This document shows positions 6,979-64,000 of a stretch of DNA of 64,000 bases, in pieces; within the stretch, counting starts at the first letter, position 1, and every line of letters starts with the position of its first letter. Origin of the DNA: Chloranthus sessilifolius (taxonomy: Eukaryota > Streptophyta > Magnoliopsida > Chloranthales > Chloranthaceae); NCBI GenBank assembly GCA_021018995.1, contig CM037587.1:91571251-91635250 (forward strand). Reading direction: 5' to 3'. The notes under the pieces are model-generated. The model saw nothing but the letters and a program-made list of their open reading frames with translations, ran no database searches and had not been told where the DNA came from. The translations under genes were made by a program, and so were the position numbers.

Positions 6979-6992
6979 TCCTTCCCACCTTG
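6979..6992 (-). other. Polypurine tract of element A
   Basis: On the minus strand a purine-rich run (AAGGTGGGAAGGA) abuts the LTR start TGTAATATC. This is the expected plus-strand primer position and fixes the 3' LTR boundary. Confidence 0.8.
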
Positions 6993-12969: not shown

Positions 12970-12981
12970 GTCGGCGAAGTC

Positions 12982-17643: not shown

Positions 17644-17645
17644 TA

Positions 17646-27999: not shown

Positions 28000-28240
28000 G
28001 CATGCGAAGCGTACATATATTAATATATAAGGTATTATCTAACTCTATAAAGATTAAATAACCCAATATAGTCAATGAGATCAGTCATGTTATAGTCTTA
28101 AAGAAGATACTGATTATGTCTTTAAGAAGATACTGATTATGTCTTAAAGAAGACACTGCCTAACGAAGGAACATCACAGTCTTATATACAAACTACGACA
28201 GGTCTTATATACAAACTACAACATGACTAATCAGACTATA
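28000..28240. repeat. Right copy of the direct repeat, leading into satellite
   Basis: Matches 26638-27060 in compressed form, with a tandem doubling of 'gattatgtctt..aagaagatact', and runs directly into the 145 bp satellite at 28240. Confidence 0.65.
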
Positions 28241-28915
28241 ACATGACTGATCTTATTGACTATCAAATTTGGATCCTACCGAACTCACATGAGTCATCAT
28301 TGGACTTATAAGAGTCAGTAAATGACTCATAAGAGACACAGTCTTGAAAATTATTTATTGGTACATTACTGTTATCAGATCATAACTTGACTAATCTCAT
28401 TAACTATCAGATTTGGAGCCTACATGACTCACATGAGTCTCCCTTTGACTTATAAGAGTCAGTAAATGACTCTTATGTGACCCAATGATGTGAGATCCCT
28501 ATTGGTACATTACTATTATCAGTGTATACCATGATTGATCTTATTGATTATTAGATTTGGATCCTACAGGACTCACATGAGTCATCCTTGGACTTATAAG
28601 AGTTATTAAATGACTGATAAGAGACTTAGTCATGAAAAATCTCTATTTGTCAGTGCTCTGGTGAGTATAATATAACTTTATCGCGACTGACTATCAGTTT
28701 TGAAGCCTATATGACTCACATGAGTCTCCCTTTGACTTATAAGAGTCAGTAAATGACTCTTATGTGACCCAGTCATGTGAGATCCCTATTGGTACATCAC
28801 TATTATCAGTGTATAATATGATTGATCTTATTGACTATCAGATTTGGATCTTAGAGGACTCACATGAGTCATCCTTGGACTTATAAGAGTTAATAAATGA
28901 CTCATGAGAGACCTA
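28240..28915. repeat. Second block of the ~145-150 bp satellite
   Basis: About 4.5 units with 'gatcttattgactatcagat', 'ttggatcctacaggactcac', 'atgagtcatccttggactta' and 'taagagtcagtaaatgactc', in the same orientation as 2986-4720. It is better preserved between neighbouring units than between blocks. Confidence 0.9.
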
Positions 28916-29719
28916 TTCATAAAATAATAAATAAATCCTTTAATTATTTTTCCAACAATCAAGAAGAAAGAAAATCAATGGAAACACAAAAAAATATTCT
29001 TGCCATTTATAAACATCTATTTTACATAAATAAAATAGCATTCTTATCATTTATAAGCTCTTGACATTTATTATACATAATCATAGCAGAACATCTGAAT
29101 AGAGAATCAAAACCCTAGAAAGGTAGTGAGTTTTTATTTTAATCAGCTCATAAATCTTAACCTAGAATCATAGGCTGTGGAAAAGAACCCAAAGCCAACA
29201 AAAGTTCTTTCTAACAATAATAGATGGCAAGAAAAAGATCGAGCTTGCAATGGGTCCTAAACCCAATACGAATTTTAAACTGAAAAAAATAACAAAAATA
29301 ATGTCCCTATTTGTACCGATTTATGGTAAAACCCTACTTCAATTCCAACTCACAAAAATCATAACTACAAACCCTAAAGATTAGAGTTTTACAAAAAGAA
29401 AAAAATAAATAAACTCCACTTGTAAAATGGAGAAGACGAAGAGTGAAAGGGAGATTGAGAATTGACTCCACCTCTGCAAATGAATGCCCGCTTCGCTTTC
29501 TTCTTTTCAAATAAAGGGCATTTTCGTTATTTTCACTATGTTTAAGTAATGGCATTTTCAACATTTCCTCTTTTTTAAATATTGGCAATTTTCTCCTTTT
29601 ATTACACACGTGTTCATTTCGTTTGAAGTTAAAACTTACAAACTGAAAAGTTTGAGGGCCTTAGACCCTGTTGGGCCGTTTTATGAAGTTGGGACCCCGG
29701 TGGGTAATTAACTCATTAT
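28916..29719. other. AT-rich sequence without recognisable genes
   Basis: Contains 'aaccctaaagattaga' (29370), which also occurs near 27565. The 91-codon minus-strand frame at 29609-29334 has no recognisable motif. Confidence 0.4.
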
Positions 29720-32714: not shown

Positions 32715-33299
32715 ATGAATAAAGAGAAGCATTTGGCGGGTGAAGGAGAATCTCTCCAAATCCAACGGTTCCAACAAATCCCTTCTCTTCAACAGTTCTC
32801 ATCCCACATCGAATCAAGAAACGTACCTGCGGTAACCATTTTGTTTTTCTTCATATTAATAGTCATCATATCGTAATTATAATATCTGATCTCTCCTGAA
32901 GCTTTTGGAGGGATGCATAAGAGACTGGAAAGCTTTCTCCAAGTGGAACCCCTCTAATGGCGGTCTCGACTACTTACAGGTCCTCACCTCCGTCTTTGAT
33001 TCTTTTCTGTTGTTTCTAATCGTTCTTTCTTGATGTTTTTTTTTTTTTCTTTCTTTCTAAAAAGCGCGAGTTGGAATATTTTGTTGTTCGAAATTGATCT
33101 ATCCGATACATATCGACAGATATGCGTTGTACTCATGGTTTTAAATATTGGTTATATCCAATACATATCGACGGATATGCGTTGTACTCATGGTTTTTAA
33201 TATTGGTCGTATCCGATGCATATCGACGGATATGTGTGTACTCATGGTTTTAAATATTGGTCATATCCAATATATTGGCGAATATGTGTTTTACTCTTG

Positions 33300-33341
<42 letters not shown>

Positions 33342-36300
33342 GCAAATATATTAAAAAAATCAGTGAGAAGCTGGAAAGATACAAAAAGCCCGACCAAAAT
33401 AGGGACCAAGCACTAAGCCAAAAAGGAAAAAACTAAAAGGAGAAAATAGAAAACCCTCCACCTAGACTACGGGGGAGGGAGAGAAAAACAAGATTAGCCA
33501 AAGTCAAACAGCTCTGGGACCTCCCCAGTCCCAAGCTTGTCAAGCCTAACCCACTGGCACATCAAATCCATGATACCCTTCAAAATCAAACCCACCGGGC
33601 GACACCTCCTATGGGAAATCCTAGCATTCCTCTCGAGCCACATGCTCCAAAAGACTGCAAAGAAGCCCACCCTCCAAAAAGTCAACAACTGGCCCTCCAA
33701 GTGGGCCCCAAACCAGGAAACAAAATGAGGAGGAATATCACTAGAACAAACCCAAGCCATACCAAAGGATCTCAAGATAACTGCCCATATCTCCTCCGCT
33801 ACCCAGCGCCGAAGTAAGAGATGGGACACCATCTCTTCCTATTGCAGACACATGACACACCTATTTGTCATGACATTGCCTCGCACCAGAAGCTGATCAA
33901 TGGTCAAAACCCTTCCCCTCAACACTGTCCAGATGAAGAACTTAACTTTGGAGGGCACCGGAGCTCTCCACATCACTGCCCACTCCACTTTAACAAAAGG
34001 CCTTAGGGACACCATCCGATAGAAAGAACAAGCCGAAAACCTACCATTAGCATTATGGCACTAGCATCTAACATCACACCTTAGTCGATTCCTTCGAGCA
34101 CTATTCACACATTTCAGCAACCCAAGGAACGGAAGCACCTCTTCATCCTTAAGGACCTGCCGTGTAGCAATATTCCACACTGTCCGCCCCTCTTGATCCA
34201 ACGAGACCTCGTCCACCAAACACATAGGGGAATCCGCAATCCTATAAATGCTACGAAAATTGGCAAGCAAAGGGCTGCCACTAATCCAGGGATCCACCCA
34301 AAACCGGATGCGAGATCCATTGCCCCAACTGAAGTGGATCCCTCTCACAAAATCTGGCCAAGCCGAACAAACTCCCTTCCACCAAGCCGAAGTATTTCTG
34401 ATGCCGTTCGTCCGAATACCCCATTCCCCGCAACTCCAGCCATACTTATGAGACAACACTTGAACCCACAGACTATTCATTTCTTCCTCTAACCCAGCTC
34501 TCCATAGCCATTTATCCATCAGGGCTTTATTGACCAAATGAAAATTGCGGATGCCCAACCCTCCCGCCTCTTCAGGCAGTTGACAAATGCCCCAGTTGAA
34601 AAGGTGGTATCTCTTCTCGAGCCCTGACCTTTCCCAAAGAAAATTTCGCTGAATACACTCGAGCTTGTTAGTAAATGATTTCGGACATTTAAACATCGAG
34701 AGATAAAAAACCGGCAGACTCGTTAAAATTGACTTAACAAGGGTCAACCTACCACCACTGCTCAACAACTTGCCTTTCCAGGAGGCCATTCGAGCCTCAC
34801 ATCTTTGAATCACCGGATCCCAATCCGCCGTCGAAGGCTTGCCAATACCGAAAGAAGCCCCAAATAGCTAATTGGCAGCTGCTGAAGGGCACAATCAACC
34901 ATTGCAGCTAATCGAGACAGCAGTCCAGCCTCGACCCCAATCCCGACCATCGAGGACTTGAGAAGATTGATTTGTTGGCTCGAAACTGCTTCAAAAATTA
35001 CCAACACATATGCCATTGACTGAATCTCAGACGGGTCAGCCCTAAAGAAAAGCACTGTATCATCAACATACTAGAGATGGGTAACCACCTGACCTTGACC
35101 CCCCACCAGAATTTCGGAGATCAAGTTCCTTCGCCTAGCTTGTGATAAAAGACCCCCTAGCACTTCCCTGACTATTGTAAACAGCATGGGCAACAAGGAA
35201 TCTCCCTGCCTCAAACCTCTCGAGCTCTTAAAATAGCTAGCAGGCGAGCCATTAACCAGAATCGAAAACTAGGCCGAGGAGACACGCCTTAATCCACCCC
35301 CTCCAAATCTCTCTGAACTCGAACCGCTTCAACATATAATCCAAGCAAACCCAGCTGACCCTATCGTACGCCTTCTCCATATCCACTTTCCAAACTACCG
35401 CAGGAACTCTATCACGATGAGCACTATGCACGACTTCATGTGCCACAACCACCATATCAGTAAGCACCCTACCGTGGACAAAAGCTCCTTTGTTAGCAGA
35501 TATGATCTTACCCATAAGAAGTTTGATCCGATTCGCTAACACCTTGGCGAGACTTTTGTAAAGGCAATTCAAAAGACTGATGGGATGAAAATCTTTAATA
35601 TCCTCCACTCCCTCTGACTTCAGAATGAGGGAAATAAAAGTCGAACTAAGGCTCTGACCCAAAAAACCTCTCGCATGAAACTCCGCAAAGAACTTCAACA
35701 AATCACTCTTGAGCAAATCCCAGAAGGCCCTGAAGAACTCCATAGTAAAACCGTATGGACCCAGAAATTTATCCCTGCCGCTAAACTTGATCGCTTCCCA
35801 AATCTCCCTTTTTTCAAAGCGTCTTTCCACCTCCGCCCCCTGAGTCGGAGATAAACTAGGAAAATCGATACCATCTAGCTGTGGACGAGACATACTCTCA
35901 TTTGAGTACAACTCTAAATAAAAACCAACAATTTGCTATTTTATGCTTTTTTGGTCCATAAATACCTCCCCTTCAACCGTAATCTACCGGATCGTCTTCT
36001 TCATAACCATGGATCAAAATATCGTCCGATACCGATACGTATCGGTTTTGGACCGGAACGATACGGTAAAATGGGCTTTTATTGCCCCCCAAAAAAATAG
36101 TCAAATTATCGTTCGTATCGTCTGTATCGTTTAAATTATCGATCAATTTATCGCCAGTCCCAAAATTTTAGGGTTTTTCTATGGCCCCTTAGAAACAGTC
36201 AAATTATCGTCCATTTCGTCCAATTTATCGTTCGTATTGTCCGTATCGTCCAAATTATCGATCAATTTATCGTTCGTCCCAGAATACATTGTACTAGGAC

Positions 36301-39300
36301 GATACATTCAATGTATCGCCGATACATTGAATGTATCGGACGATTCGTGATACGTATCGTCTTGGAGGTTTGGACTATACGTATCGAAAATCCGATTTTT
36401 TGATCCATCCTTCATACCCTTCGCATTAGCCACCGAGTGAAAGTACTTATTATTGTCCCCCACCTTCAACCAATGCACCTTAGCCTTTTGCTTCCAGCTG
36501 GTCTCCTCTTCAAAACACTTATCATGAAACTCCATTCTGACCCTCACCCTCTCTCCCTTCTCAAGATTAGACAACCCTCTAGCCTCCTCTATGTCTTCCA
36601 ACTCCTTTAGCCTATCGAGAAGGAGCTGATTGGAGACATGAACCAGCCCAAACACTTCTCTATTCCAGCTTTTGATTTTGCTTTTGAGGTACCCCGAGCT
36701 TAGAGATAATTTTGAAAGCAGCTGAGGCAATAGGCGCGCTCTCCCTCCACCACCTCGGAACATGCGCTCGAAAATCCTCATTACGCAACCACATATTTTC
36801 AAAACGGAACGGAGAAGGGCCTTTCCCAATCGAGGCACTATCCATGACCAACGGCCTATGATCGGAAATGGCCTTGGCAAACCCCTGCAGAGCCACATTC
36901 AAAAAAATATTCATCCACTCTGGTGAACAAAGAAAACGGTCAATTCGGCTTAACGTGACCTGATCCTGCAGATTAGACCACGTAAACCTAGCTCCTATAA
37001 GAGGGAAATCAAACAACGCACAATCTTGAACGAAGGAATTAAGGCCCCTCATCGACGACCTATTCAGTGGCCCCCCATTTTCTCCGAAGGACACCTAATT
37101 GCGTTAAAATCACCGTCGAAGCAAACCGGTACATCCTATCTTGCCACAATCGTAGAAACCTCGAACCAGAAATCATCTCTCCTTCCATCGTCATTCGGGC
37201 CATACACCCTAGAGAAACACCAACGCAGACCGTTATCTCTTTTCTGGAGAACCACCAACGCCGAGAACTGGCCAATTTCCTCATCCACTTTGGAGAATAA
37301 CAAAGCATTCCAAACCACCAAAATCCCCCTGGAAGCACCCACCGAGTCTACCCCAATCCACTCCCAACAATTTCCCCCTAACACAGACTCCACTTTAGAC
37401 TGATCACAACACCCCCACTTAGTCTTTTGCAGCGAAAGTACCGCAGGATTATGCAAAGAGATCACATCTCTAACCCCCACTCTTTTCTTCCAGCCACAAA
37501 TACCTCGCACATTCCAAGAGAAAAACTTCATTAGACAGTAATCTACGCTCGACCGGACGCCTGAAGGGTCAACGTCCCATGGCACACCTCCCGTCCCGCA
37601 AACCCCACTCCAGTCTAGCCAGTTCACGCGCTCTAGATCCCTTCTTCCCTTTACCTCGATTGGAGCGACTTCCTTGAATATCCTCAAAGAGCTCTCTTAG
37701 AGAAGCATCCGACTCTTTGAAAGACATCCCGATGTCACGACCAAAACAAATTAATCGAGCAATGGCATCTGAGTTCACACTTTCTCCCCCTTCCGCCCTA
37801 ACCCTCGGAGCAGAGGATTCCTCCGAGTTCACTGATACCGACGCATCTCCTTCTGGATAGGAGCACTCCACCCATCCCCCAGACTCCAGTTGGCGAAGAG
37901 AGCACAGAGGCCTAGGCCCTCTATATAATGTAGTCGATGACTCAGAGTCCTCAACCGAGGAAGAGATCTCCTTCCGTTCAGACATTTGAGGCTTTAAAGC
38001 ACCTTCTCACATATCCCCCCAGACCTGGCTTAAAGTCGCTATCCTATCCCAGGGCTCAAGAGACGCTCACTGTTCAATTATCCCCCCATCTGCCAAGCAG
38101 CAGACCCTCGACCCACACCAGAGGGAGGTGGACCAGAGACCCATTCATATTCTACTGAATTGGGCCTCTCCTTCTAATAATCCGATCTAGTCTCGACACG
38201 AGGCCTCCATGCCCTAATACCACCTGACATTAATAGCCCTGCCTAGCTGTTCTCCACCAACCTTGCAAGACGACAAAACCAAAAGGGGCCGCTCGGTATT
38301 GTTCAAAACCATAGGCCGGAATAGGGTATCACCCCCACGTGTCACCTCTCTTGCCGAAAGCAACAGAACCACCTCTGCTTCCAAACCCATATACGACGGC
38401 TTCAAAACCCCTTCCTTTCCGCTCTCAAAACCACTCCCAACCTCCAAAGGCATACCAGTATCCCCCCCAGCCAAACATAACTCCCCGTCATCTCCTCAAC
38501 CATGGGGTCCTCCCTATACTCTCCCCTTACCTCCATGTAGAGACCTTTCCAACTCAGCACCTCATCCTCGACCACTTCAGAATTTGAACAAGTATCCATT
38601 GAGGAAGAGTACGAGGCTGAACCAGGAGCAATCATACCCATCGGATTAGGCAACAGTCATATCCTATACATATTGGCGAATATGTATCGGATTAGGTCCC
38701 ATCTGAAACGATATACACCCGATTTAATAAGGGGGCGAATATCGGGTGAAATTGGTCAAATATCAGCCCATATCACCCAATATGTATCTGATATGAACCA
38801 GACAAAAATCCAAAAATGCCCTTTAGGCAATTTTTTGTTAGTATGTTTATCCAAAAATCGGCTAGTTTGGCCGATACGTATCCAATCAAGGTAGTTAAGG
38901 CGGTGTGGCAAGGTCATGGCAAAGGGGCTCACCACGCCATGGCAAGGCCCATGGTTGTCAAGGCAACGCTATAACCTCGCCGTAGCTAATGACGATGAGA
39001 AACGCCACATACAATCAAATAGCCATGATGGCTAAATAACAACACCATATCACCGTCATGGCGGAATAGCACTATGGCGCTGCTATACATTCTATTTAGT
39101 TTTTTTTTATAATAGCGTATAATATTTATAAAATAGATAAGTTATAAGTATTACATTGTTATAGCTTATAATACTTATAAGTTATAACATTTTTATAATA
39201 TATAACTTACAAAAGGTAACTTACAAGTTATAAAATCTCAACTTATAATTTACAAAATCCTTGACTCTCTCTCTCTCTCTCTCTCATCACGACTAGGGGC

Positions 39301-42300
39301 AGACCCACTGAAGGCCTACCATGGGCATATCGTGGGCATATGCCCACGGTGAGTTAAAAAAATAAAAAATAAAAATAGTTGCCCTATGCTGTACCTATAA
39401 GCAAAAGCAACTGCTGCGTCTTCATCCCATCCCTATGCTATAAACCTATTCCCTATTTAATCAAAAGCAACTCATCATCCCTATGCCTATAAACCTATAC
39501 CTTACTTAAATTCAAAAGCAAGCAACTACTGCGTCTGCATCCCTTTCTCCTGAGAAAAACATAAAAAACCCCTTAATTCCTTAAACATCCGAGTATCCTC
39601 CTCATCAGTCATCTGAGTATCCGACTCATCTCTCTTAATCTATTACTTTAATATCTCTCCAAGCCTCCAATGGAATGGATGCCCAACGGCGACCGACGAC
39701 GGGTGATGATGTTGGGCGTAGGGCAATCAGCGATGGCAAACACGCGATTGTTTCCGGTAAACAATCAACCCTATTTATCCTTGAATCAACCCTAACAAAT
39801 TGTTTCTATTGCAGAGAGTTGAGAGCACTGGAGTGTTTTTTTTTTGTTTTCTTCGTTCGCTTTCGCAGAATTGTCACTGAATTGCTTTTACATGCTATAG
39901 GTTTACCGGTTTAGGGTTTATGTTTTTTTTTTTATAGATAGGCATTTTAGGAATCATTTAAGAGCATTTTACATGATCTAATGTATATATATAGGGATTT
40001 TTGTGTTATGCCCACCATAGAGAAAAATCCTGGGTCCGCCGCTGTTCACGACAACTACCAACATCAGTGTCGACGACATCTCAGTCAGCTATCGATCGAC
40101 AAAACCTCAACATCGACAACATTACAATATGTGTACTTGATATTTAAATATTTTTTTAATATTCTATATTTATTTGATATTTGATATTTATTTTATTTAT
40201 ATTTACCATGTTGTAAATTTGTTGATGTTCCATAATTGATTTATATTTATTGATATTTATTTATGCCTAGATATGAAATCCTCAATATTAGAATCAAAAT
40301 ATGATGCTTAAGTAGTTAAATTTTTTTTTCTATATATTATTTAATTTTTTTTCCCTATATAAAAAATTAAAAAGAATATTACTAATTAATAGATAAAATA
40401 AAATATAACAAAATTTTAAAATAATAAATAGCCTCACCATGGCGTAGTGAGCCTCTTTGCCATGACCTCGCTACACCATGGTGAGGCAATTTATTAATTT
40501 CTTTAATAATTTTAATTTTATTTATTAATCACTAATATGCATATATATATTTTAATTTTCTACTATTTTTATAGAGGACGAAAAAATTCAACCAATTAGT
40601 CAGGTAGATCAGTTTTGGGGAAAGATTGGAACGACTATCTGATAATATTTTCATGATCTTAAGGTCAATTTTGGGAAAAATTGGAACGAAAAACGATCTT
40701 TGTCAGTCCAATTCAAAGCGTCAACAATCAGTTGTACCTAATATTTAGCATATGGTGGGGAGCAACCCCCCCTCCTACCACAAAAAAAAAGGAAAAAAAA
40801 GATAAAATAGACAAAAACAAACAATAAAAAACAGATGAAAAAACATTAAAAATGATAATTGCTGGTATTAAAGTTCATAAACAAAAAGATTACATAATAA
40901 AAAACAAAATAAAATAAAAAATCATACATGCATGAGAGTCTGCGAAGAACTTGAGCGTTGACGGTCGTTGATTGAGTGCGAAGGTTCTAATTGGATTAAA
41001 AAAATGAGAGAGAAACAAACGAGAGAGGGTACTGATAAAAAAAAAGATAGACGAGAGATGAGAGAGAGAGAGTGCGAGATTAAAAAAATATGAAAATTTG
41101 CGTTGAGAGAGAGAGAGGCTGCAAGAGACACGAGAGAGGAGCTGCGAGAGAGGGGCTGCGAGAGAGACTAGAGAGTTTTACCTAAGTCCCAAATATGATG
41201 GATGTAACTTATCAAACATAAGTTATAAGTTATAAATATAACTTATAAGTTTTATAATATATAAGTTATAACTTAATGGTTATAAGTTATTAAATTTTTT
41301 TTAAAATAGTGGCCATGGCGCCGCCATTCCGCTATGGCGTCGCCATATATGCATTCTCGCCATATAGGTTCATATGACGATTCGCCTCGCCATTTGTCAT
41401 GGCGTTGCCATGGCCTTGCCTTGACAACCATATATCCGATATGTATCGGCCTAGGACCCGACCGGTGCCGATATATATCGGACTTTAAATCCCTGGTTGT
41501 ATACAATTCAAACACTTCTATTAGTGCTTAAGTCTCTAACCATGGATGATTTATTCATCACTTGGAAATAATTAGAACACAATTGGTATTTTTCAAGTTG
41601 ATGTGTTACTGGATGGATTTCTTATTGGTACTAATTTTAGGAAATTATATTCTGATTTTTGCCTCTAAGATTTAAGAAAAACAGAAATCACATTATGGAT
41701 GGCTAAATGGGAATTAAGGGACTTAAATAATTGTTCAACAAAGTAACGTACATCTCTAGGATAATTTCCCAAATTACTCTACTTATTTCTGTTAAAGTGT
41801 TACTCTTTTTTGTTACTATGTGATCCTTTGTATTGCTTCTTACTATATTCCTCCAACTAATATTGCTCTTTCTGGTCTCCTACTTCCTCGTGCTTGTTGC
41901 TTGTTTGGCCAATTAGCACCACATCATCAACAAAGAACATGCTATAAAACTTCATCCTGTATTTTGCTGCTAACTTGAATTGGGAATTTAATCTTATCTC
42001 CACTTTTAAACCAGCTTTGATTGAGAACTCAACCTTCTAGTTCTTACACTAGTTACTGCGCCTTTATACATCACCATTGTTCCCTTGTCGCATCTATTTG
42101 GGGTTGACTTTGCGAGTCCCATTTTTTCCGTTCAATTTTATCTAGGCCTAAAGTCTCTTTTCACTCAACAATCCTTCATGTTGCTTCTCAATGCTTCTCT
42201 TAACGTCTTTATATCTTCTTCTTATATGTCTTCGAAAATCCAATATATTCATTTGGGATGCATTCCCTCCTTATGCCAGGCAATCTACCTTCACACCTAT

Positions 42301-45186: not shown

Positions 45187-45221
<35 letters not shown>

Positions 45222-54200: not shown

Positions 54201-57200
54201 CATTGAATGTAGAGCTGACCCCTATATCAGGTGGAAGCTCGATAACATATGCATTAGGGCCGCTCGTTGCCACAATTCTAAAAGGCCCAGCGCCACGGGC
54301 TTGAAGTTTCTTTGCGGCTCCCAATGGGAACCGCTTAGGCCTAACCCGAACCATGACGTAATCTCCAACCTGGAATTCCTTGAAGCGCCTGTGCGCATCC
54401 ACAAATATTTTGTATTGTTCATTGCTAGCATTAATTCTTTTTCTAATTTCGGCATGCAATTCATGTATATGCTGTGCAAATGAATCGACTGACTCGGAAA
54501 CTCGATGGGATGCAGATATAGGAATTAAATCAATGGGTGTTCTAGGCCTATGACCAAGGGCGACCTCAAAATGACTCATACCTAGGGATCTTTTGACTGA
54601 ATTGTTATATGCAAACTCGGCTAAAGGCAAAATAGAATCCCAAGTCTTAGGGTGATCATCAACAAGACAACGGAGAAGATTACCTAAGCTCCTATTGGCG
54701 GACTCCGTTTAGCCATTTGTTTGAGGATGATAGGCTGACGAAAATTGGAGCATCGTACCCATCATGTGCCATAAAGTTTTCCAGAAGTAACTGGTAAATC
54801 TCACATCTCGATTTGACACAATCGTCTGGGGTAAACCATGTAGACGCACAACCTCCCCGAAAAATAATTTGGCTATGTGAGCCGCATCGGAGGTTTTAAA
54901 ACAGGGTATGAAGTGGGCCATCTTGGAAAAGCGGTCCACTACCACAAAAATGGAATCGTGCTTTCGTTGAGTCTTTGGAAGCCCAAGCACGAAATCCATA
55001 GAGACGTCTTGCCACGGGGTGTGCGGCACGGGTAAAGGGGTGTACAAGCCCGTATTTTGTTTTATATGCTTTGCAACTTGGCAGGTACGACATTGTTTTA
55101 CGACCCTAGAGACATCTCTCGCAAGGCTAGGCCAATAGAACCTATCCTCAACAAGCGCACTGGTTTTATCGCGCCCAAAATGTTCGGCAATCCCTCCGGC
55201 ATGTAACTCCCAGATGAGGAAATCACGCAATGAAGTGCGAGGGATGCACAAACGTTTCCTTTTGAATAAATACCCATCCAGCAGGGTATATTCGGAGTTA
55301 TTGTTGTTCGGATTTTCAAAGAAAGCAGTGTATTCTGCCACCGAAATCTGGGCAATCAGGATAATCTTGCTTCAACTGCTCAAATCCGATGACTCGGTGC
55401 TCATAGACTGCAAAGTCATGACTCGACGACTAAGCATCGCGGATTGTTCTCAGACCAAACCTTATGCTTCAAAACAAATGTGAACCCTTGAAGGTACTCA
55501 ACCCACTTCGCGTGCCTCGGGTTTAACTTTTTCTGGGAAGCAAGCGAGGAAGCGTCGTGGTCAGAAAACAACACAAATTCTTGCGGTCTCAGGTAATGTT
55601 TCCAATACCACAGAGATCAGACGACCGCATAAAACTCCTTGTCATAGGTGGAGTATTTCTGCTTTGCCTCATTGGGTTTCTCACTAAAATAGGCCACAGG
55701 GTGACCTTCTTGGCTTAGCACTCCGCCTATGCCTACACCCGATGCGTCACATGCTACTTCGAAGACTTTGGAAAAATATGGTAGGCGCATGACAGGTGCA
55801 ATAACCATTTTCTCTTTTATCTCGGCAAAGGCCCTCGTCGCGGCTTTGCTCCACAGGAACTCCCCTTTTCTCATGCAATCGGTAATGAGAGCCATGATGG
55901 TGCTAAAATTCCGGATGAAGCGACGATAAAACGTGGCCAACCTGTGGAAGCTACGGACTTCATGAATATTTCGAGGTTCGGGCCACTCCACAATGGCCTT
56001 AACCTTCGTAGGGTCTGCAATCATCCCGTCTACTGAGACAATGAATCCCAAGAATACAACAGAGTGCTGCATGAAGGTGCACTTCTTGAGATTCGCGAAT
56101 AGCCTTTCTCTCCTCAAGGTTTCGCAAAGCAACCTCAGGTGGATAATGTGTTGCTCCTTGTTTGAACTATAAATCAGAATGTCATCAAAGTATATGACAA
56201 GGAACTTGCCAAGGAATGGCCTCAACACTTGGGTCATGAGCCTCATAAATGTGCTCGGGGCATTGGATAGCCCAAAAGGCATGACCATCCACTCATAAAG
56301 ACTGTCTTTGGTCTTGAAGGCGGTTTTCCATTCATCACCAGGGCGAATACGAACTTGATGGTAGCCACTTTTAAGGTCTATCTTTGAAAAGATAGTGGCT
56401 CAAACCATCATGTTAAGCATGTCATCAAGCCGCAGTATGGGAAACCAATATTTAACAGTGATCTTATTAATTGCTCGGCTATCCACACACATACGCCATG
56501 TACCATCTTTTTTAGGCGTGAGTAATGCTGGTATAGCACACGGGCTCAGACTCTCTTGTATGAACCCCTTTTGAAGGAGTTCACTGACTTGCCGGGTCAG
56601 CTCGGCATGATCAACCGGATTCAACCTGTAGTGGGGCAGGTTCGGTAATATCGATCCAGGAACTAAGTCAATTGCGTGTTGAATGTCACGCATGGGAGGG
56701 AGCTCATTAGGTAAGTCTTCGGGGAAGACATCCGCAAATTCATTCAGGATGGGCTCTACCTCCTTGGGGTACTCACAGACTGACTCAGAAGTACTCTCAA
56801 CAGTAACAACGACATACACAACACTCTCATCTTTCGATGCTCTCTCAAACTCTGAAGGGGTCACAATATTGATGGCCTTGGATCGACCTCCCTTCTTCTC
56901 AACTCTGTTGACTGATGGTGCTTTGGGACCCAAAGGGTTAAGAGTGATTTTCTTGCCCTTGTAATTGAACGTACAAACGTTAGATTGCCCAAAAATGGTC
57001 ACGTTCAAATCATAGAGCCATGGCCTCCCTAAGATAATGTGGCCCACATCCATCGGCACCACATTGCACCATAAGGTGTCAGTGTATGAACCCAACTGTA
57101 TGGGTACACGACACCTCTGAGATACGGGAATGGATGAAGAGTCAACCCATGCGACTTTGTAAGGTCTCGGATGGGCTTCAGGTGTAAGCCCTAAGCGAAT

Positions 57201-60200
57201 GATGGTATGTTCTGACACCACATTGGTGCAGCTTTCGCTATCCACGATTACCCTACAACTCTTTGTCCCACATGTGGCAAAGGTGTGGAAGATGTTCTCC
57301 CTTCGCCAATCCTCCTTTTCATCCCGTTGAGGCTGCGCAAAGGCACACCTCACAACTAGAGCGCGACTCATGCTATCACCTTCCTCGTCACTAGGTGTGG
57401 CATTCGGCTGAAAGACCTCTTCCTCATAAACTCCTTCACTCTCTTCTCCTTCCCCGTCAATGAAGAGATTCCTTTGTGGATCTCTCGTAGGGCATTGGGC
57501 GGCAAAGTGTCCCAACCCTTGACATTTATAGCATTTGACATGAGACCCACTCTTCGAGGATTCTCCGGCTACACCCTTACCTTTGTCAAACCTCACATTG
57601 GTAGATGTAGGTTGCGTGGGTTTGGCAGGCGGGTTTCCAACACTAGATTTCACTTTGCTGGTACGGAATTGACCAATGTGAAAATCAGATCGCCTAGTCA
57701 CCGTCATTTTCAAATATCGTTCAAGGTCTTGAACAACGGTGTAACACTCGGTGGAGTCTCAACAGGGTGGGGGACTAACTCTTTTTGCAAGTCCAGTCTC
57801 TTACGAAATCTGGATAGAGTGACTTGGGGGTCTTCGGATACCTTGGCTCTCATCATGAACTCTTCAAATTTGCCAATGTAATCCGATACGGGCATACTAC
57901 CTTGGCGCAGATTTTGTCATTGGTCAAGGAGACGATGGTAGTATGAAGGAACGTACTTCTCTGTAAGTCGCTCCTTCATGTCCTCCCAATGGGTAATGGG
58001 AGCACAACCCGCATTTGTTCTAATGCGTTCAACGTTGACCCAAAAGAGTCGGGCTTGGCCTATGAGCTTCATTTTAGCAAGTCTAACACACCTTTCATCG
58101 CTCATTCCAAACCACTCAAAGTGCTGGTCCATGTCGGATAACCAGTCGAGGAAGACTTGAGGATCTAGCCTTCCATCGAAAGTCGGGAACTCAACTCGGA
58201 CATTTTTGAGGAGTCTCCCTTCCGGGTCGTAGTCATCTCCATGATGATCAAACCTATGATTCCGGTTCCGATTATGTTGGTAGCCATTTCGTTCAAAACG
58301 TGGACCATTACGTTCACGGGGTGGTTCAAAGTACTCATCACCCTCGTCTAACCGATTGACTCGGTTTAACAACCTCTCATTGGATGTTTCGAAAGTCCTT
58401 TGGGCTACCTCTAAGACAGTCATTCGATCATTGATCGATTTTAGGTCAGCCCTCATGCCGTTAAGAGCTTTGGCAATCTCACTCATGTCCATGGTGATAC
58501 AGTTTACTACTGACGGGCTCTAGAATGGAATGCAAGATGAACACTTTGGCCAAAACTGAAATAATATGTGATGAAAATAAAGTGCAATGAATGCAATGTC
58601 ATTCAGTATGCCCTAACCTAGAACCTAAGGCTCTGATACCAAAACTGATGCAGGACGGTACCCTAAACCACGTGAATGCAATGATTAATTTTGCCGAAAT
58701 TAAATTGGAATTAAATAAACAATAAAACTTGCAAAATATAACGAATACCTCAGGTTTTCGTAGTATTCCACGGGAGAATCATGCATAATTTAGGCAGGGT
58801 TCAGTCCGAGCGCTAGATCCGTTAGGTTGCAGCGCAGATCGATCCTAGAGATAGAACTCTAGGTTTTTCCAGATTAGGGCGCTCACGATTCAATGATGGG
58901 ATCACTGATTTTCTCTGAATATCAGGTGCGGAAGGTTTAATAACTCTGCTGGGCTCGGATTGATTCAAGGATTTAGAGAAATTTAGGGTTTAGGATTTCA
59001 CAAGATGGTCGATTTAGGGTTGTAGAATCACGCAATCAAAGATAAAAGAGATAGATAGATAGAATTGTAGGCTTCACACCCATGGCTTCGCACCAAACCC
59101 TTCTCGGGAAGAAGATTCACTCTTCGTAGAGGCTCTCAGGCACACATAAGCAAAAGCTCTTTTCATTCATAATCAATAATCTCCTTAATGGAGTGTTTAC
59201 AATGCCTTTATATAGGCTAAGAAAACCCTAAACGATATAAAACTCGCAATTAAAAGAGTCCTAAAATAATAAAAGACTAAAAAGGTTAAAAAAAAAAAAA
59301 AAAAACGAAAAACGAAAATTTTCCGTCACTGTAGCCCACTCGAGCGAGGATTATATCCGCTCGAGCGAGGGCCCGCTCGAGCGAGCTTAAGTGGTCGCTT
59401 GAGCGAGGGCCCGCCCGAGCGAGAAATTTAACCGCTCGAGCGAGGGCCCGCTTAAGCGAGGAATTTAACCGCTCGAGCGAGGGCTCGCTTGATACTATTC
59501 TCCTCGTGGTTTGTACCCGCCCTCTTCATTTTCAGAACTCCCTTTTCGCCTAGTTTGATTTCCATTCCGCTTCTTCCGGCGTCGGTACACGCGAAAAGGT
59601 CCATATCTGATGTCTACGATGTCGGCGTCCCCATCAATGTACGCCCATGACCATTTTCACTTTTTGAATTGTTTGCCATATGGAATCAAAATAAAACCCT
59701 CTGACTGTTGGACCATGATCTCAAGATCTATTATCACAAGTATTGGGGCGAAAAACAATTTATATCTATTGATTCAAAGGGGTCAAAAGGTACAAACATG
59801 TAAAACCTGGGTTGAGAAGGAAGGATGCATTGTTTAAAATAAAGGTACCCATCTTCAAAAGCACTTCCCAAAACCGTTTCATTGCCTTGAATAAAGGTAA
59901 CTCCGACGTCCTCCCGAAATTCATCTCATTGCCTTAATTCAAAACACCAAAATCGAAACCCATTTTCATAACCTAGAACCTAATGTCGTTCAATCTCCGT
60001 CCTCGTGTGATCTTCATCCACCAATCCTTTTTTGTCACCATTTGTCTCTTGAATTTTTTTTTCTAAAACAAGGTTTTTTGGGTTTGGGTTTTATTTTCTT
60101 GAAAAGACTTTTGGTAGAAAAAAGAACCAAAACTTAAAAGGCTTTTTTCATGGTTGTTTCTCAAGCTAGGTGGTTCAGTAAAGTGGGTTTTAATAATTCT

Positions 60201-63200
60201 TTCTTTTGTTTTTGTAATTTTTTTTATCAACTAAAAGGGATATTAGTAGAAGGGTTTGTATCATTACATATTAGTAGAAGGGTTTGTCCCATCCAAAATT
60301 TGTTGGGGTATATTTTAGAGGGGATTTTCAGGTACATTTCATTTGAGCCTTGGCTCCACTAATTTTGATATTGTTTTTATTTTTATTTTAATAAAGATTG
60401 TGGGTTGTAGAGACCATGGAATTTACTGAAGTTCAAATTTCTAATGGAGGTCTTGGGTCATGAATTTAATGGAGATCCTGGAGTTTGCAAGGATCCAAAT
60501 GATTATGAGGTTGTGGGATGTATAGATCATGGAGTTTGTAGAGCTTTCCACCTGGCAAAAACCCCCCACTGGACCCTCTTCTTTCTCCACTTTTGGTCTC
60601 AACAAATAAACCCAAAACCCTCTTCTCTTCTCCTCCCTCTGGTCTCTGACTCTCTCTCTCTAGGCTCTGAATAGACTATATGACTTGGCACCAGTGAAGG
60701 GTAGAAATGATATTTCGTACCTCCTAGCCACCTTTAAATAAATAAACGTAATGACATGAAACAAATTTTAACGACCCGTCACAGTAAGGGGGCATATGTA
60801 CGAGAAATACTAGTCAAAGGGGCGGAAAATAATATGGGGTGCGGAGTGCAATTTCGCAATATCTTAATGGGGTAAATGCAAAAATCTCTTTATTTAAAAG
60901 CTCCTAAGGTCTATTAATTTAAATAATTTAATTACAATGGACTCTAATTAATTTAACTAACATTATACTTATGATCAACAATCAATCAAGTGCATCAAAA
61001 CAATCAAAATCACCATTTAAGCAAATACTAAGATCTAATTAAGCATAAAATGGTCGTTACAATAGTCAGATACGTATCAGCATCCGTCAATACAAAACTT
61101 TTTTTCTTATTTTTTTAAAGAATTTCCTAAAAATCATTAAAGACTATAAAACTATTAATATACAAATGTATATACTTATTAAATATTTAAAATTATTCAC
61201 GTGACTCTATAGTGGCGGCCGTTACATGTACCAATACCGATAGCAGACCGATATCAATACTAGTATTAGTAGTAGTATTGGTTTGGTCGAAAATGATACA
61301 TATCGGCAATACATATCAGTATTGGCCCAGTTTTGATTCTAAAATTGGCAGCTCTCTCCAATACTGAATTTATAAACCTTGCTGCCAACCACCATACTCA
61401 ATTCAAGTGTCACCCACAATGATCTACTGGAGTATTCTATTATCATTGTTAATGTGAGGGCCTATTTGGTTTCTTAACCATACATGCTAATTTTTAACGC
61501 ATATGACTTGTTTCATCCATCGTCATCATCATCATCATCACTTTCCTATTTTGTTGCTTAACCATACATGCTACATGTTGCACGTATGACATGTTTAATT
61601 CATCATCCTCGTCATTGCCGTCGTTATCGCTATCGTCTTCATCTTCGTCATTGCCTTGTTCCACCTATTTGGGGTTAGCTATGCAAGTCCTACATCTTCA
61701 ACTATATGTGCATTATTCCTGATACCTAGTAATTTTCAAATGAGCAGAGATTAGATAAACACCCCCAAAACCGCTTTAAACTAGCAAAAATCTATGCACA
61801 AATGCCGGAAAACATCAATATTCATAGAATCAAATGTTGTAAAGTCTAAATCACCAAAGTGGGTCCAAAAGTGAAAATTCTAAAATTTTTTTATGAAGTT
61901 TATGAAAAAAATGTGCTTTAAGCTCAAATGTCTTGAGAACATTTATGATTAGTAGATCATGCATGCATTTGAGGAAGAAATACAAAGAAAAAGATATTTC
62001 TCTAAAAAACTTTTCCAGAGAATCCATGAAACCCTAACAACTAAGAACAACTCTTTTGAAACAGTACCTTATGTAGCATGAAATTCACGAATGCATTGAG
62101 TTATTTCTCGAATGTTGCAGATGCCATTACTTGCCACTTTTTGTCCAAAATATAACAATAATCTGCTCGGAGTTACCTGTTCCCTAAGCAAAAATATTTT
62201 ATATGCATATTTATAAGTTTTTTTTGCATTTAGCCCCCTATGTTATTGTGAAATTACACTCCGCCCCCCGTGTTATGCATATTTATTTTCTGCCCCTTTG
62301 ACTAGTGTTTTCTGTACATATGGCCCCTTATCGTGACAGGTCGTTAAAATTTGTTTCCTGCCGTTACACTTATTCATTTAACGGTGATTAAGTGGTATGA
62401 AATACCATTTCTACCCTTCACTGTTCACCAGGTCACATCATCTTCAACCTCTTGACATGCAGATTCCAGCAACTTAGGAACTCCATTAAAATAGGAAGAA
62501 GGCCTCACCTATTACAATCTCGCTGCCAAATGCACATAGAATCATGATCTCACTGCTAAAAATTAGAAAGCTCTATCAATGGCCAGATTCCGAACCAGAT
62601 TCAGCCCTCCGATGACGACAGTGATGGTGTCCCGTGGAAAACCGGTGATCGCGTGGAAAACCGATGTTGATCAAGGTGTGGATCGAATCTAGAGGTTTTA
62701 AGAAATAAAAAATTTAAAATCCATAATATAAAAATTTAAACCCTAGAATTTGTTTCCGACACTGCCTTTTTTGCCGCCTTCGGTGGTTGATTTGGAGGAT
62801 GAAAATGGCAGGTTGCCTGCAACTCTGTGAAGAAGAAGAAGAAGAAGAAGAAGTACCCAAACCCACCTATGAAACCACTTCGTCTTCTTTCCCAAAATCC
62901 ATTGCTCAAGGGTAAGAACACCGGAGATCATGGGATGCCACTCGGAGAGGCAGGTTGCCTGATTGAGCATGCCTTGCTTTTGCCCCCTCAACTTCAACAC
63001 CTTCCTCTCCCTCAAGCTATTCAACAAGAGCTCCATAGGATTTTCCTAGACAAGGTATATCTCTCTCTTTCTCTCTCCTCCACCCACCGAAGTCAAAATC
63101 TTTTCTCTGCCTCACTGTTCACTAATCAAACGTTGGGGTTTATTATAGGTCATCCCAGATTTGGGACTATGCATCTCCGTCTACGACATTCGATCCATCC

Positions 63201-63981
63201 ATGGTGGCCACATTGTCCCTGGAGATGGAGCATCCACCTATCAGGTGCTTACTTTTTCTACTCATCTATTTACCCGTCCATGGCGGCCACATCGTCCCTT
63301 GAGATCCAAAAGCAACGGTCGATCCACAGGCCATATGCGATGATGAAAATGATGCTTGTGCGACAACATGGGATTATCAAACGACGGCTAACGATCAGGT
63401 AAGATTATGTAAGGGGTTTCAAATTGTAGGGGCATTTGTGGCTTCAAACTTAATTTTCATTGAGGCATAAGGGTAAGAACGTCGTTACACACTTCCGTTA
63501 ACGTCCGTCTAGCGATCAGTACCAGTCAAAGCTGGTCAACTAACCGCAAGGGGTTTTCTACACAGATCCCGCCAATCATCTGGGTGAAAAATAAATATGC
63601 ATAACAGGGGGGGCGGAGTGTAATTTCACAATAACATAGGGAGCTAAATGCAAAAAACCCTTTTTTATAAATTATACAATAGCTTATATTATTATTATAT
63701 AGTTTTGTAGTTGTATTGAAAACCAGTTCGTTACTTTTGGCTTTGCTTCCTTACTTGTACTTATATAGCAAAACATATTTTCGTTGTATATTCCTCATGA
63801 TGTAGATTAGATCTCCATTAGAAGGCACATGAAGTTGACATAAAAGCATACCTGTGATTCTATTATCTGAACAATCATATGATGGCTTAAATTGCAGGAA
63901 CAAGTCGGATCGTCGGTTGTGGAAGCTATGCTCTCTAGATCTGCCCCAGTTTTCTATGGAGATCTTAGAAATCATGAAAGG
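32715..63981 (+). CDS. JmjC/cupin-type 2-oxoglutarate oxygenase, first three coding exons (continues beyond window)
   Basis: Exon 1 (32715-32831, 39 codons) begins MNKEKH and ends [11 protein letters not shown]. Intron 1 is 70 bp (32832-32901). Exon 2 (32902-32979, 26 codons) reads [15 protein letters not shown] and ends GGLDYLQ|GT. Exon 3 (63898-63981, 28 codons), after TTGCAG, begins [12 protein letters not shown], contains [14 protein letters not shown] and is followed by GT. All three junctions are phase 0 and each exon is open. The order 'NVPA..GCI.DWKAF.KW.. / DYLQ / [14 protein letters not shown]' fits the N-terminus of plant JmjC (cupin_8) proteins of the JMJD5/TYW5-like group, which hydroxylate or demethylate protein or RNA substrates. 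The Fe(II)-binding HxD/H residues would be in exons beyond the window. Family call is from recognition of the pattern; the subfamily is uncertain. Intron 2 is about 31 kb. Confidence 0.7.
33096..33337. repeat. ~55 bp minisatellite plus (TA)n tail
   Basis: About 3.5 copies of a 54-55 bp unit containing 'actcatggttttaaatattgg' and 'catatcgacggatatg', then a pure TA run at 33303-33337, which abuts the 3' end of the LINE and may be its tail. Confidence 0.8.
33494..37531 (-). pseudogene. LINE ORF2: endonuclease, reverse transcriptase, zf-RVT
   Basis: Starts [13 protein letters not shown] at 37531, an APE-type endonuclease motif, then [24 protein letters not shown] and [10 protein letters not shown]. 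The RT region (35911-34800) shows [39 protein letters not shown] and [12 protein letters not shown], the last preceded by a stop. Beyond it are [18 protein letters not shown] and [13 protein letters not shown], and the C-terminal [16 protein letters not shown]2 nicks target DNA and reverse-transcribes the LINE RNA. Several stops and one 400 bp insertion disrupt it. Confidence 0.9.
36009..36408. mobile_element. 400 bp MITE inside LINE ORF2
   Basis: Inverted ends ATGGATCAAAA / TTTTTTGATCCAT. Flanks CTTCATAACC and CCTTCATACC look like a ~9 bp duplication with one indel. The interior contains two copies of a ~90 bp unit ('tcaaattatcgt..gtatcgt..caatttatcg') plus gatacgtatcg motifs. It belongs with the copy at 43040-43218, which has the same ends. 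Confidence 0.7.
38654..38886. repeat. GATACGTATCGG-type repeat, left part
   Basis: Contains tatacatattggcgaatatg, atgtatcggattagg and gccgatacgtatcc. It is interrupted at 38887 and resumes at 41432-41490 (atatccgatatgtatcggcc). Confidence 0.6.
38887..41431. mobile_element. 2.5 kb MULE-like non-autonomous element
   Basis: Left end 'aaggtagttaaggcggtgtg' pairs with right end 'ccttgccttgacaaccat', and further in 'ggtcatggcaa' pairs with 'ttgccatgg'. Sites at 38878-38886 (GTATCCAAT) and 41432-41440 (ATATCCGAT) agree at 7 of 9 positions, consistent with an old 9 bp MULE duplication. The interior is AT-rich, with a (CT)n run, a short palindromic 'gcctcaccatggcgtagtgag' insert (about 40431-40495), the hAT-like element and repeated 'gagagagaggctgcgaga' motifs (41040-41170). 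No transposase. Confidence 0.6.
39294..40044. mobile_element. 751 bp hAT-like element
   Basis: Ends TAGGGGCAGACCCA and TGGGTCCGCCGCTG are imperfect inverted repeats of the plant hAT consensus CAGGGGCGGACCCA. Flanking 8-mers ATCACGAC (39286-39293) and TTCACGAC (40045-40052) differ at one base, as expected for an hAT target duplication. The interior includes 'tgggcatatgccca' and a 79-codon frame (39675-39914) without recognisable motifs. Confidence 0.75.
41496..41849. other. Unassigned intron sequence
   Basis: AT-rich; I see no gene or repeat structure. Confidence 0.3.
41850..42660 (-). mobile_element. RTE-clade LINE fragment
   Basis: Minus-strand relics of [16 protein letters not shown] (42540-42490) matches the RTE 'GD..NC.NYRGIKL' block, [11 protein letters not shown] lies near 42050, and [12 protein letters not shown] near 41925 is the catalytic YADD-type motif. 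The stretch 42085-42360 carries the RTE 3'-tail phrase 'tatttggggttgactttgcg'. Order is scrambled by deletions. Confidence 0.65.
43040..43218. mobile_element. MITE, same family as 36009-36408
   Basis: Ends CCATGGTTCAAAATT and AATTTTGACCCATGG. The interior has ccgataggtatcgg, atgtatcggtatg and gatacgtattg. Flanks GGACAAC/GGACACAAC suggest a short duplication with an indel. Confidence 0.6.
43219..43859. other. Unassigned intron sequence
   Basis: No recognisable coding frame or repeat. Confidence 0.3.
43860..44165. repeat. GAT/GATG-rich microsatellite
   Basis: About 300 bp of imperfect gatgatgg/gatgatgat units with interspersed acaatgaggac-type phrases. Plant RTE LINEs often end in such trinucleotide tails, so it may be a relic RTE tail. 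Confidence 0.75.
44166..46069. other. Intron sequence with microsatellite and GATATCGG repeat
   Basis: Mostly unassigned. 45190-45222 is a (TC)n(TA)n microsatellite. 45490-45785 holds dispersed-repeat phrases (aatatgtatcggtatcggc, gatatcggctgtattggcgg, ggtatcggtccttgtgggac) like those at 30200 and 61060. Confidence 0.5.
46070..47070 (+). mobile_element. 5'-truncated L1 LINE fragment (zf-RVT end)
   Basis: [12 protein letters not shown] and [13 protein letters not shown] (to 46459), then in a second frame [13 protein letters not shown] and [15 protein letters not shown] with [14 protein letters not shown] (to 46841), are the C-terminal zf-RVT region of L1 ORF2. The last part matches the LINE at 33494 at the protein level. 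A 3' UTR and A-rich tail (about 47048-47065) follow. Sense orientation relative to the JmjC gene. Confidence 0.8.
47071..49011. other. Unassigned intron sequence
   Basis: AT-rich, with repeated 'ttactaatgggtctt' phrases near 48905-48980. No gene recognised. Confidence 0.4.
49506..49911 (+). pseudogene. C1 integrase C-terminus running into the LTR
   Basis: The proline-rich linker ([11 protein letters not shown]) is followed by [20 protein letters not shown], a chromodomain-like KWxG...SW block, then [13 protein letters not shown]. The frame continues past the LTR start at 49824 and stops at 49911, so the last ~29 codons are encoded by the LTR. Confidence 0.75.
49824..50748 (+). repeat. C1 LTR, 925 bp, flanked by integrase on one side and gag on the other
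   Basis: Starts TGACGGGGACGCC and ends CCTGCATCA. The TATA box CTATATAAAGG is at 50159-50168. It lies between the 3' end of pol and a primer site, the arrangement of a one-LTR circle or of two tandem elements sharing an LTR. Confidence 0.85.
49975..50060. repeat. CGCTCGAGCG palindrome cluster in C1 LTR
   Basis: Copies of CTCGAGCG and variants separated by 'gttataatcc' or 'accacttaag'. About 100 bp upstream of the TATA box. The two C2 LTRs have other copy numbers. Confidence 0.85.
50753..50765 (+). other. C1 primer binding site (tRNA-Met type)
   Basis: TGGTATCAGAGCC four bases after the LTR end. Confidence 0.9.
50902..52897 (+). pseudogene. C1 gag, protease and truncated reverse transcriptase
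   Basis: Gag from ATG 50902 ([13 protein letters not shown]) with [15 protein letters not shown], ending at an in-frame TGA (51475-51477) where a Trp codon is expected. The frame resumes ([15 protein letters not shown]), shifts by one base near 51645, then enters 51678-52487 with zinc knuckle [14 protein letters not shown] and protease [11 protein letters not shown] (intact D-S-G) and LGRPWLYD. The RT start (52586-52897) has [16 protein letters not shown] and a TAG within, and stops at ..GTWRM where C2's LTR is joined. Confidence 0.85.
52898..53870 (-). repeat. C2 3' LTR, 973 bp
   Basis: On the minus strand starts TGACAGGGACGCC (53870) and ends CCTGCGTCA (52898). Its end abuts C1's RT codons directly. 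It contains the CTCGAGCG cluster (53600-53725) and TATA box (about 53484-53494). Confidence 0.85.
53600..53725. repeat. CGCTCGAGCG palindrome cluster in C2 3' LTR
   Basis: Alternating 'cgctcgagcgag' and 'gaatttaac' or 'ggattataac' linkers; several half-sites mutated (CTTGAGCG, CTCGTGCG). Confidence 0.8.
53871..55341 (-). pseudogene. C2 integrase
   Basis: The zinc-binding HHCC region ([24 protein letters not shown]) is followed by the catalytic core MDFVLGLP with the first Asp. The second Asp block reads IVSNRDVRF (Asp to Asn), and the Glu block reads HPQTNG-stop-TE. The C-terminal part (54630-53995) has [11 protein letters not shown] and AYVIELPPD, and continues with a stop near 53994 toward the LTR. 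Cut-and-join activity would be lost on two counts. Confidence 0.85.
55617..57713 (-). pseudogene. C2 gag C-terminus, protease, RT and RNase H
   Basis: 57713-56400: zinc knuckle [14 protein letters not shown], protease site [11 protein letters not shown] (Gly of D-S-G changed to Glu), LGRPWLYD, then RT start with [13 protein letters not shown] and [14 protein letters not shown]. After a frame break near 56400-56290, RT continues [25 protein letters not shown] and [10 protein letters not shown]. RNase H start: [24 protein letters not shown] (to 55617). The remaining RNase H is broken up to 55345. Confidence 0.88.
57710..58492 (-). pseudogene. C2 gag N-terminal and middle part
   Basis: From ATG 58492 ([13 protein letters not shown]), with [15 protein letters not shown] and [12 protein letters not shown], ending at TGA 57917-57919 at the same codon as C1. 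It resumes at 57895 ([16 protein letters not shown]) and carries the same one-base shift before ..[13 protein letters not shown] as C1, so both copies inherited these lesions. Confidence 0.85.
58629..58641 (-). other. C2 primer binding site (tRNA-Met type)
   Basis: Minus-strand TGGTATCAGAGCC four bases inside the 5' LTR. Confidence 0.9.
58646..59636 (-). repeat. C2 5' LTR, 991 bp
   Basis: Starts TGATGGGGACGCC (59636) and ends CCTGCATCA (58646). The TATA box is CTATATAAAGG (about 59207-59217, minus). Right flank ATGTA equals the five bases left of the composite. Confidence 0.88.
59335..59490. repeat. CGCTCGAGCG palindrome cluster in C2 5' LTR
   Basis: The largest of the three clusters, about 10 copies of CTCGAGCG or variants (CTTGAGCG, CCCGAGCG) with 'gggccc', 'gaatttaac' and 'gcttaagtggt' linkers, about 120-280 bp upstream of the TATA box. 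Confidence 0.85.
59642..60711. other. Interior of the split MULE, right side
   Basis: No gene recognised. Together with 49320-49500 it forms the ~1.2 kb interior. The 75- and 76-codon frames at 59610 and 60444 lack known motifs. A captured gene fragment is possible but not shown. Confidence 0.4.
60898..62207. other. Intron sequence with repeat relics
   Basis: 61060-61390 has dispersed-repeat phrases (cagatacgtatcagcatcc, gatacatatcggcaatacat). 61505-61690 is a minus-strand RTE 3' tail: a (GAT)n-like run ending at 'cacctatttggggttagcta'. The rest is unassigned. Confidence 0.5.
62217..63661 (+). mobile_element. Pack-MULE carrying an RPC8-type gene fragment
   Basis: Left end 'ttttttgcatttagccccct' and right end 'agctaaatgcaaaaaaccc' are inverted repeats that continue through 'attgtgaaattacactccgc' and 'gttatgcatatttattttc'. 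Flanks TATTTATAA (62208-62216) and TTTTTATAA (63662-63670) are a 9 bp duplication with one mismatch. The interior (62960-63244) is a fragment of an RNA polymerase III subunit gene with its intron. Same TIR family as 49021-60888. Confidence 0.8.
62960..63244 (+). pseudogene. RPC8: Captured fragment of RNA polymerase III subunit RPC8 (RPC25/RPB7-like)
   Basis: Exon a (to 63054) reads [17 protein letters not shown] then [15 protein letters not shown]. Intron 63055-63148 (94 bp, GT..ATTATAG). Exon b (63149-63244) reads [16 protein letters not shown] then [16 protein letters not shown]. This is the N-terminal SHS2/RPB7-N domain of RPC8, the stalk subunit that helps Pol III initiate. Retained intron and donor sites show capture at the DNA level. 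No start Met of its own is visible; upstream in-frame sequence includes MPLGEAGC and a (GAA)n run. Downstream exons are absent, so no functional subunit can be made. Same strand as the host gene. Confidence 0.8.
63671..63897. other. 3' end of intron 2
   Basis: T/A-rich sequence leading to the acceptor TTAAATTGCAG. A branch-point-like context is plausible but not definable by eye. Confidence 0.4.
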
Positions 63982-64000
63982 GTGCGTGTTTTGTATTTTT

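Follow-up and report, generated by a model that had tools for sequence, protein, structure and literature searches.

In Arabidopsis, genes with heterochromatic introns, of which IBM1 is one, are handled by IBM2 and EDM2. Their counterparts in rice depend on OsIBM2, and loss of OsIBM2 leads to premature polyadenylation inside the intron (PMC7145194, from excerpts of that report). IBM1 is also a JmjC gene, and JMJ31 falls in a different JmjC subfamily; AtJMJ30-32 and AtJMJ20 are classed as "JmjC domain-only" (PMC9029850, in part), plant JMJ31 being At5g19840. Very long introns are known from several plants. In the published excerpts, Cornus officinalis has 13,567 introns of >12 kb (11.7% of all), its long introns are enriched in Gypsy elements, and longer introns correlate positively with expression (PMC12860560); Sapria himalayana has introns of >100 kb in 23 genes (PMC10246380); and two genes of Areca catechu, with introns of >17 and 6 kb, were earlier misannotated (PMC12046898).

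Here we describe a gene of Chloranthus sessilifolius that appears to have an intron of 31 kb filled with transposons. The window, the whole stretch of 64,000 nucleotides analysed, is C4:91571251-91635250 of a 2,168,743,587-bp (2.17 Gb), 32-contig assembly. Such an intron is of an already-known kind and is not exceptional in the published large plant genomes, as represented in these excerpts, because thousands of introns of >12 kb have been reported in one dicot (PMC12860560). The likeness to the long introns of Cornus officinalis, Sapria himalayana and Areca catechu lies in their being very long introns in ordinary genes, and that to the IBM2/EDM2-type genes in transposon insertions inside the intron of a gene; the difference, as far as the excerpts go, is that one gene is here dissected to the base, from sequence alone. 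The parts that may be novel are a putative inverted Ty3 hairpin in the intron, less ordinary than a transposon-filled intron as such, and a putative in-frame exon derived from the RPC8 gene. Among the titles listed, no literature was found on JMJ31 with such an intron. The features of the locus are given in Table 1.

Table 1. Features of the JMJ31 locus and of its intron 2, in window numbering (positions above 64000 lie beyond the window)
Feature	Position	Strand	Remarks
JMJ31 exon 1 (E1)	32715..32831	+	start codon, 39 codons, phase 0
Intron 1	32832..32901	+	70 bp; counterpart in broken C2 copy
JMJ31 exon 2 (E2)	32902..32979	+	26 codons
Intron 2	32980..63897	+	30,918 bp, mostly transposons
LINE-like element, antisense to host gene	33497..38495	-	Pfam RVT_1 E 1.2e-13; open-frame limits only
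Tentative repeat block inside LINE	near 36.1-36.3 kb		repeat evidence
Tentative TIR element, 2.5 kb	38952..41430	.	TIR-like ends TGGTTGTCAAGGC / GCCTTGACAACCA
Tentative LINE fragment, sense	45995..46838	+	zf-RVT E 0.057, below cut-off
MULE A, split by Ty3 block	49021..60888	.	TIR ends, TSD TATATTTAA/TTTATTTAA (8/9)
Left flank of whole Ty3 block	49501..49505	.	ATGTA
Ty3 piece, sense	49506..52897	+	3' end of pol (Chromo domain), single LTR (about 49824-50748), gag; truncated within RT
Ty3 element, complete, antisense	52898..59636	-	LTRs 52898-53870 / 58646-59636; frames broken by stops
Right flank of whole Ty3 block	59637..59641	.	ATGTA
Pack-MULE-like element	62217..63661	.	TIR arms 62208-62329 / 63548-63669
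Captured RPC8 exon A, then GT	62962..63054	+	sense
Captured RPC8 exon B	63149..63244	+	sense; 96 bp, phase 0-0, AG/GT
JMJ31 exon 3 (E3)	63898..63981	+	28 codons
E4	64121-64291	+	modelled exon
E5	65610-65678	+	modelled exon
E6	65941-66067	+	modelled exon
E7	66321-66393	+	modelled exon
E8	67530-67646	+	modelled exon
E9	82728-82847	+	model counted to 82827; end read by homology
C-terminal block	ends 90959	+	limit read from sequence by homology
C-terminal block	98838-98953	+	limits read from sequence by homology
C-terminal block	128202-128295	+	limits read from sequence by homology
Last exon	129186-129242	+	ends in TAG; limits read by homology

An earlier note on this DNA had described three exons of 39, 26 and 28 codons in phase 0 with GT/AG borders, the last two separated by 30,918 bp, which would join into the N-terminus of a JmjC/cupin protein. 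Exons and distance were found at exactly those bases; each exon length is a multiple of three, with GT after and AG before. The 93 residues of joined E1-E3 matched Pfam Cupin_8 (E 4.2e-7) and, by phmmer, 37 of 60 candidate proteins at E <= 0.001, the best being a JmjC protein of Quercus (E 2.3e-35, 77% identity). The matches bore names such as JMJ31, JMJ30 and tRNA-wybutosine-synthesizing protein 5. There is a likeness to TYW5-like proteins as well, some relatives carrying tRNA-wybutosine names from their sources. In the alignment with 19 of the 37 relatives both exon junctions were contiguous and no junction residue was missing. Twenty-five columns were invariant among these 19 (own sequence excluded), and 23 of them are kept here; the other two, V40 and F41, with which exon 2 begins, are both L. 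One of the 19 (P0022) breaks two as well when counted in this manner.

When the 37 relatives were compared with the window by tblastn, scores of 47.4 bits at E1, 58.2 at E2 and 60.8 at E3 were obtained, as against a maximum of 31.6 bits in 30 first-order Markov simulated windows. These scores, far above those of the simulated windows, together with the Cupin_8 and phmmer E values, ruled out chance exons. The same tblastn search revealed no extra exon and no second E3 inside the interval; strong window matches occurred only at E1/E2 and E3, and thus there is no second E3 near E2. A processed retrocopy was rejected because intron 1 is present. No Rfam match was found within the window at gathering scores.

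Beyond position 64000, where the earlier note had pointed for downstream exons, E3 is succeeded by ten further exon blocks, which keep its strand and the order of the protein down to a stop codon. For splice-site modelling, GT donors, GC donors under a penalty and AG acceptors close to the matches were admitted, on condition that phase was kept and no stop arose, and the choices were scored against six relatives. The best-scoring choice was GT/AG at 8 of 8 modelled introns, and the nine exons joined, open throughout under that condition, gave 312 residues. This model was identical to Magnolia JMJ31 (P0004) at 223 of 304 alignment columns, to Castanea P0002 at 209 of 305, to P0006 at 203 of 301 and to P0005 at 202 of 302, all four being among the six relatives used for splice scoring; Magnolia was the most identical of the four. 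The modelled protein matched Cupin_8 over residues 27-299 (E 8.5e-50) and JmjC_2 (E 2e-5). HxD and H motifs, which bind the metal in 2-oxoglutarate oxygenases, are present; HYD and FHQVDS line up with their counterparts in two JmjC-family chains of solved structure. By match names and identity, the gene is classified as JMJ31-type (Cupin_8/JmjC, 2-oxoglutarate oxygenase family), its likeness to plant JMJ31 resting on the Magnolia identity and the Cupin_8 domain.

From ATG to stop codon the gene spans 96,528 bp. It has three other long introns, one of 15,081 bp and two of roughly 7.9 and 29.2 kb; the last (98954-128201 in window numbering, about 29 kb) lies beyond the window in the same gene. 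No counterpart of one short exon of the relatives (the LTDKEM part) turned up in the downstream sequence between E9 and E10.

A search of the genome with the 93 residues gave four matches, three of which were the exons described here and the fourth C2:145253505-145253618. The C2 copy (C2:145253505-145253747) comprises E1, intron 1 and E2 only; its E1 contains a TAG stop, its E2 lacks 18 bp, and it retains V-F at the site of L-L in the intact gene. A search of 60 kb of surrounding sequence gave no further exons at E <= 0.05. With a 352-residue relative as query, seven matches were obtained, six at the JMJ31 locus and one at C4:112.4 Mb (29% identity), which is probably another JmjC gene; three of the matches run into a stop, and these stops fall outside the modelled exons. 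An intact copy elsewhere, with the exons studied here left as fragments, would according to the earlier note have spoken against its reading; two whole-assembly searches brought up no second intact copy among the best-scoring candidates, and the broken C2 fragment was the sole other piece. Among those candidates the JMJ31 locus is the only intact copy found. The idea of dispersed fragments of a gene intact elsewhere was not borne out, the C2 E1-intron 1-E2 piece being the only one seen.

At least eight separate transposon insertions had been claimed for intron 2. Four to five of them are firm (LINE, MULE A, Ty3 block and Pack-MULE), the count varying because the Ty3 block may be one event or two, and three others are tentative (Table 1). 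The antisense LINE carries a reverse transcriptase at 35252-35935; the six other frames of this stretch (34061, 36308, 37136, 33497, 36663 and 37572) gave no Pfam match and were assigned by eye. A sense open frame at 42698-43237 (+, 179 codons) had no Pfam match either. A TSD as good as the 8/9 of MULE A would arise by chance, if its ends are held fixed, at 0.6% of AT-matched sites. Upstream of JMJ31, two tandem arrays of ~145-bp units, related to each other, were seen at 3011-4660 and 28221-28930. Direct repeats at 5321-6979 and 15981-17644, 92% identical, flank retrotransposon frames (RT 12364-12981) and are likely LTRs, with TCGATTAATCGA repeats.

The Ty3 block (49506-59636), recognised by Pfam matches, lies inside MULE A, between exact 5-bp copies of ATGTA. 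It is unusual in that a sense piece directly adjoins a complete antisense element, and its left end is a non-LTR end despite the exact ATGTA on both sides. The block with these flanks may represent a complex single insertion, or the flanks may be a coincidence. The K2P distance between the LTRs of the antisense element was 0.035; the gag parts of the two Ty3 pieces differed by 0.030, and the sense LTR differed from the others by 0.053-0.057. At the rice substitution rate of 1.3e-8 per site and year, 0.035 would correspond to about 1.3 million years, and to several times more in slow trees.

At 52898 the end of a Ty3 LTR meets a Ty3 RT-coding site of opposite orientation; around this junction, the best 40 of 4,230 candidates were scored. 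The query, one place on C10 and one on C14 matched across the junction (the two at 80-81%), which falls on one site, within 2 bp, in the three loci, and the remaining 37 matched the gag side only. There are hints of a preferred insertion target of the Ty3 family in Ty3 RT sequence, in a sample that was not a fair one, the junction having been sought on purpose. At C10:15711064-15711259 a complete Ty3 relative lies antisense inside another Ty3, within 2 bp of the same RT-coding site, and CACAT was read by eye on both sides of it; C14:108285098-108285291 is arranged like C10 on the one side seen.

The two Ty3 pieces form near-perfect inverted arms of about 3.1 kb. Exact 21-mers cover 83% of the 3,077-nt arm, and the longest exact match is 214 nt. 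If the JMJ31 promoter transcribed this inverted Ty3, double-stranded RNA might be formed and processed to siRNAs contributing to the genome-wide silencing of the abundant Ty3 family, a reading that we rate as very unlikely; were it true, a JmjC host gene would carry an intronic silencing locus against retrotransposons, acting as was first suggested for Mu killer but tied to its own transcript. The nearest case known to us is Mu killer. In this maize locus, too, a transposon that is inverted and has lost some of its sequence lies close to a host promoter and is a candidate source of a long hairpin RNA, there from MuDR; here, as against what is given in excerpts of PMC3440606, the element is a Ty3, sits in an intron and is known from its sequence only. 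Plants in which Mu killer silences make antisense transcripts from inside the locus, read-through sense transcripts accompany silencing failure, and a simple read-through model is disputed (PMC3440606, in part). Because read-through at Mu killer went with silencing failure, read-through alone should not be assumed to be enough. No like locus was found among the matches listed in the literature on intronic hairpins or autointegration-type LTR insertions.

Pack-MULEs are defined by TIRs, a 9-11 bp TSD and a host gene fragment. The element close to E3 has TIR arms of 122 nt (80% complementary) and carries part of RPC8, a gene for a subunit of RNA polymerase III: two exons and the intron that separates them, identified by Pfam SHS2_Rpb7-N (E 2e-14), PDB RPC8 (E 3.7e-10) and all 65 candidate proteins (E <= 0.001). 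A parent-like RPC8 locus without TIR matches was found on C12 (86% over 62957-63281), and two further copies that include parts of the TIRs were seen, one at C4:0.86 Mb (86%, its interior longer by ~3.9 kb) and one at C8:24.9 Mb, where separate pieces match at 72-86%. The RPC8-carrying family has at least three copies in the genome. In its TIRs, captured host fragment with an intron, parent-like locus elsewhere and more than one copy the element is like Pack-MULEs; it differs in an inexact TSD and in its sense orientation in a host intron. The TSD was 5/9 at first placing and 8/9 only with the ends shifted by at most 2 bases, for which the chance among AT-matched sites was 3.2% (1-base slack) or 5.5% (2-base slack).

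A gene intact in sequence might splice intron 2 poorly, with most transcripts ending early in it, and the locus might be turning into a pseudogene or be expressed under certain conditions only. Premature polyadenylation in transposon introns is known from rice OsIBM2 and Arabidopsis ibm2 mutants (PMC7145194, in part), and the E2 donor (CAG/GTCCTC) is weak. It fits the consensus at 5 of 9 positions, and 575 of the 1,385 GT sites in intron 2 score as well or better; because the C2 copy has a similar GTCGTC at this position, the weak donor seems ancestral. The same reading would draw on the substitutions at two otherwise invariant residues and on a modest excess of AATAAA on the + strand of intron 2, where 34 were counted; 100 Markov simulations averaged 23.9 (s.d. 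4.5), and a single one of them reached 34. However, the sense Ty3 LTR has no AATAAA, no second intact copy was found among the best-scoring candidates to take over, and the nine modelled exons have all stayed open between GT/AG borders while the Ty3 LTRs diverged by 3.5%, so that decay has not begun since the Ty3 insertion. Poor splicing is rated as unlikely.

The distance of 30,918 bp might also suggest two gene pieces, E1-E2 and E3 onward, brought together in the genome or by misassembly. This is highly improbable, for the junction is residue-exact with 19 relatives, the phases match, no other E1, E2 or E3 was found besides the broken C2 piece, and both the Ty3 block and MULE A have flanks that agree with each other over a distance of 10-12 kb. 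A splice variant taking in RPC8 exon B would insert 32 residues between E2 and E3. The length, phase, borders and orientation of this exon would allow it, its donor fits at 7 of 9 positions, and E2, exon B and E3 read through without a stop; but the inserted residues would interrupt a conserved part of the cupin domain, and the acceptor, with 10 pyrimidines of 20, is average for AG sites in intron 2. We give this variant only a slim chance.

The earlier note took the locus for a JmjC host gene in which an intron of ~31 kb is filled with transposons. This is the best reading, supported by the ordered downstream exons and by no intact copy having been found elsewhere among the best-scoring candidates; long introns with transposons have also been reported from plant genes that are expressed. 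We consider it very probable that the locus is an intact JMJ31-type gene whose intron 2 was enlarged by transposons and which is transcribed and spliced with these transposons silenced. Intron 2 would have grown to 30.9 kb by successive insertions of LINE, MULE-type DNA transposon and Ty3 elements, which would have left the exons and splice borders of a multi-exon gene untouched. Intron 2 shows the GT/AG borders, matching phase and junction colinear with relatives of a spliceosomal intron, and in a primary transcript that runs some 96 kb as far as the stop codon, ordinary U2 splicing would join 32979 to 63898. As in other plant genes whose introns are heterochromatic, the transposons of intron 2 would be silenced within a gene that is transcribed.

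What the locus offers is a plant gene, apparently intact, with a coding sequence stretched over about 96 kb by introns that took in nested transposons, the modelled splice borders being kept. Gene finders may cut it into pieces. It is a defined place at which plant splicing across transposons could be tested, and likewise the putative production of small RNAs from an intronic inverted Ty3 and the possible use of a Pack-MULE gene fragment as a new exon.
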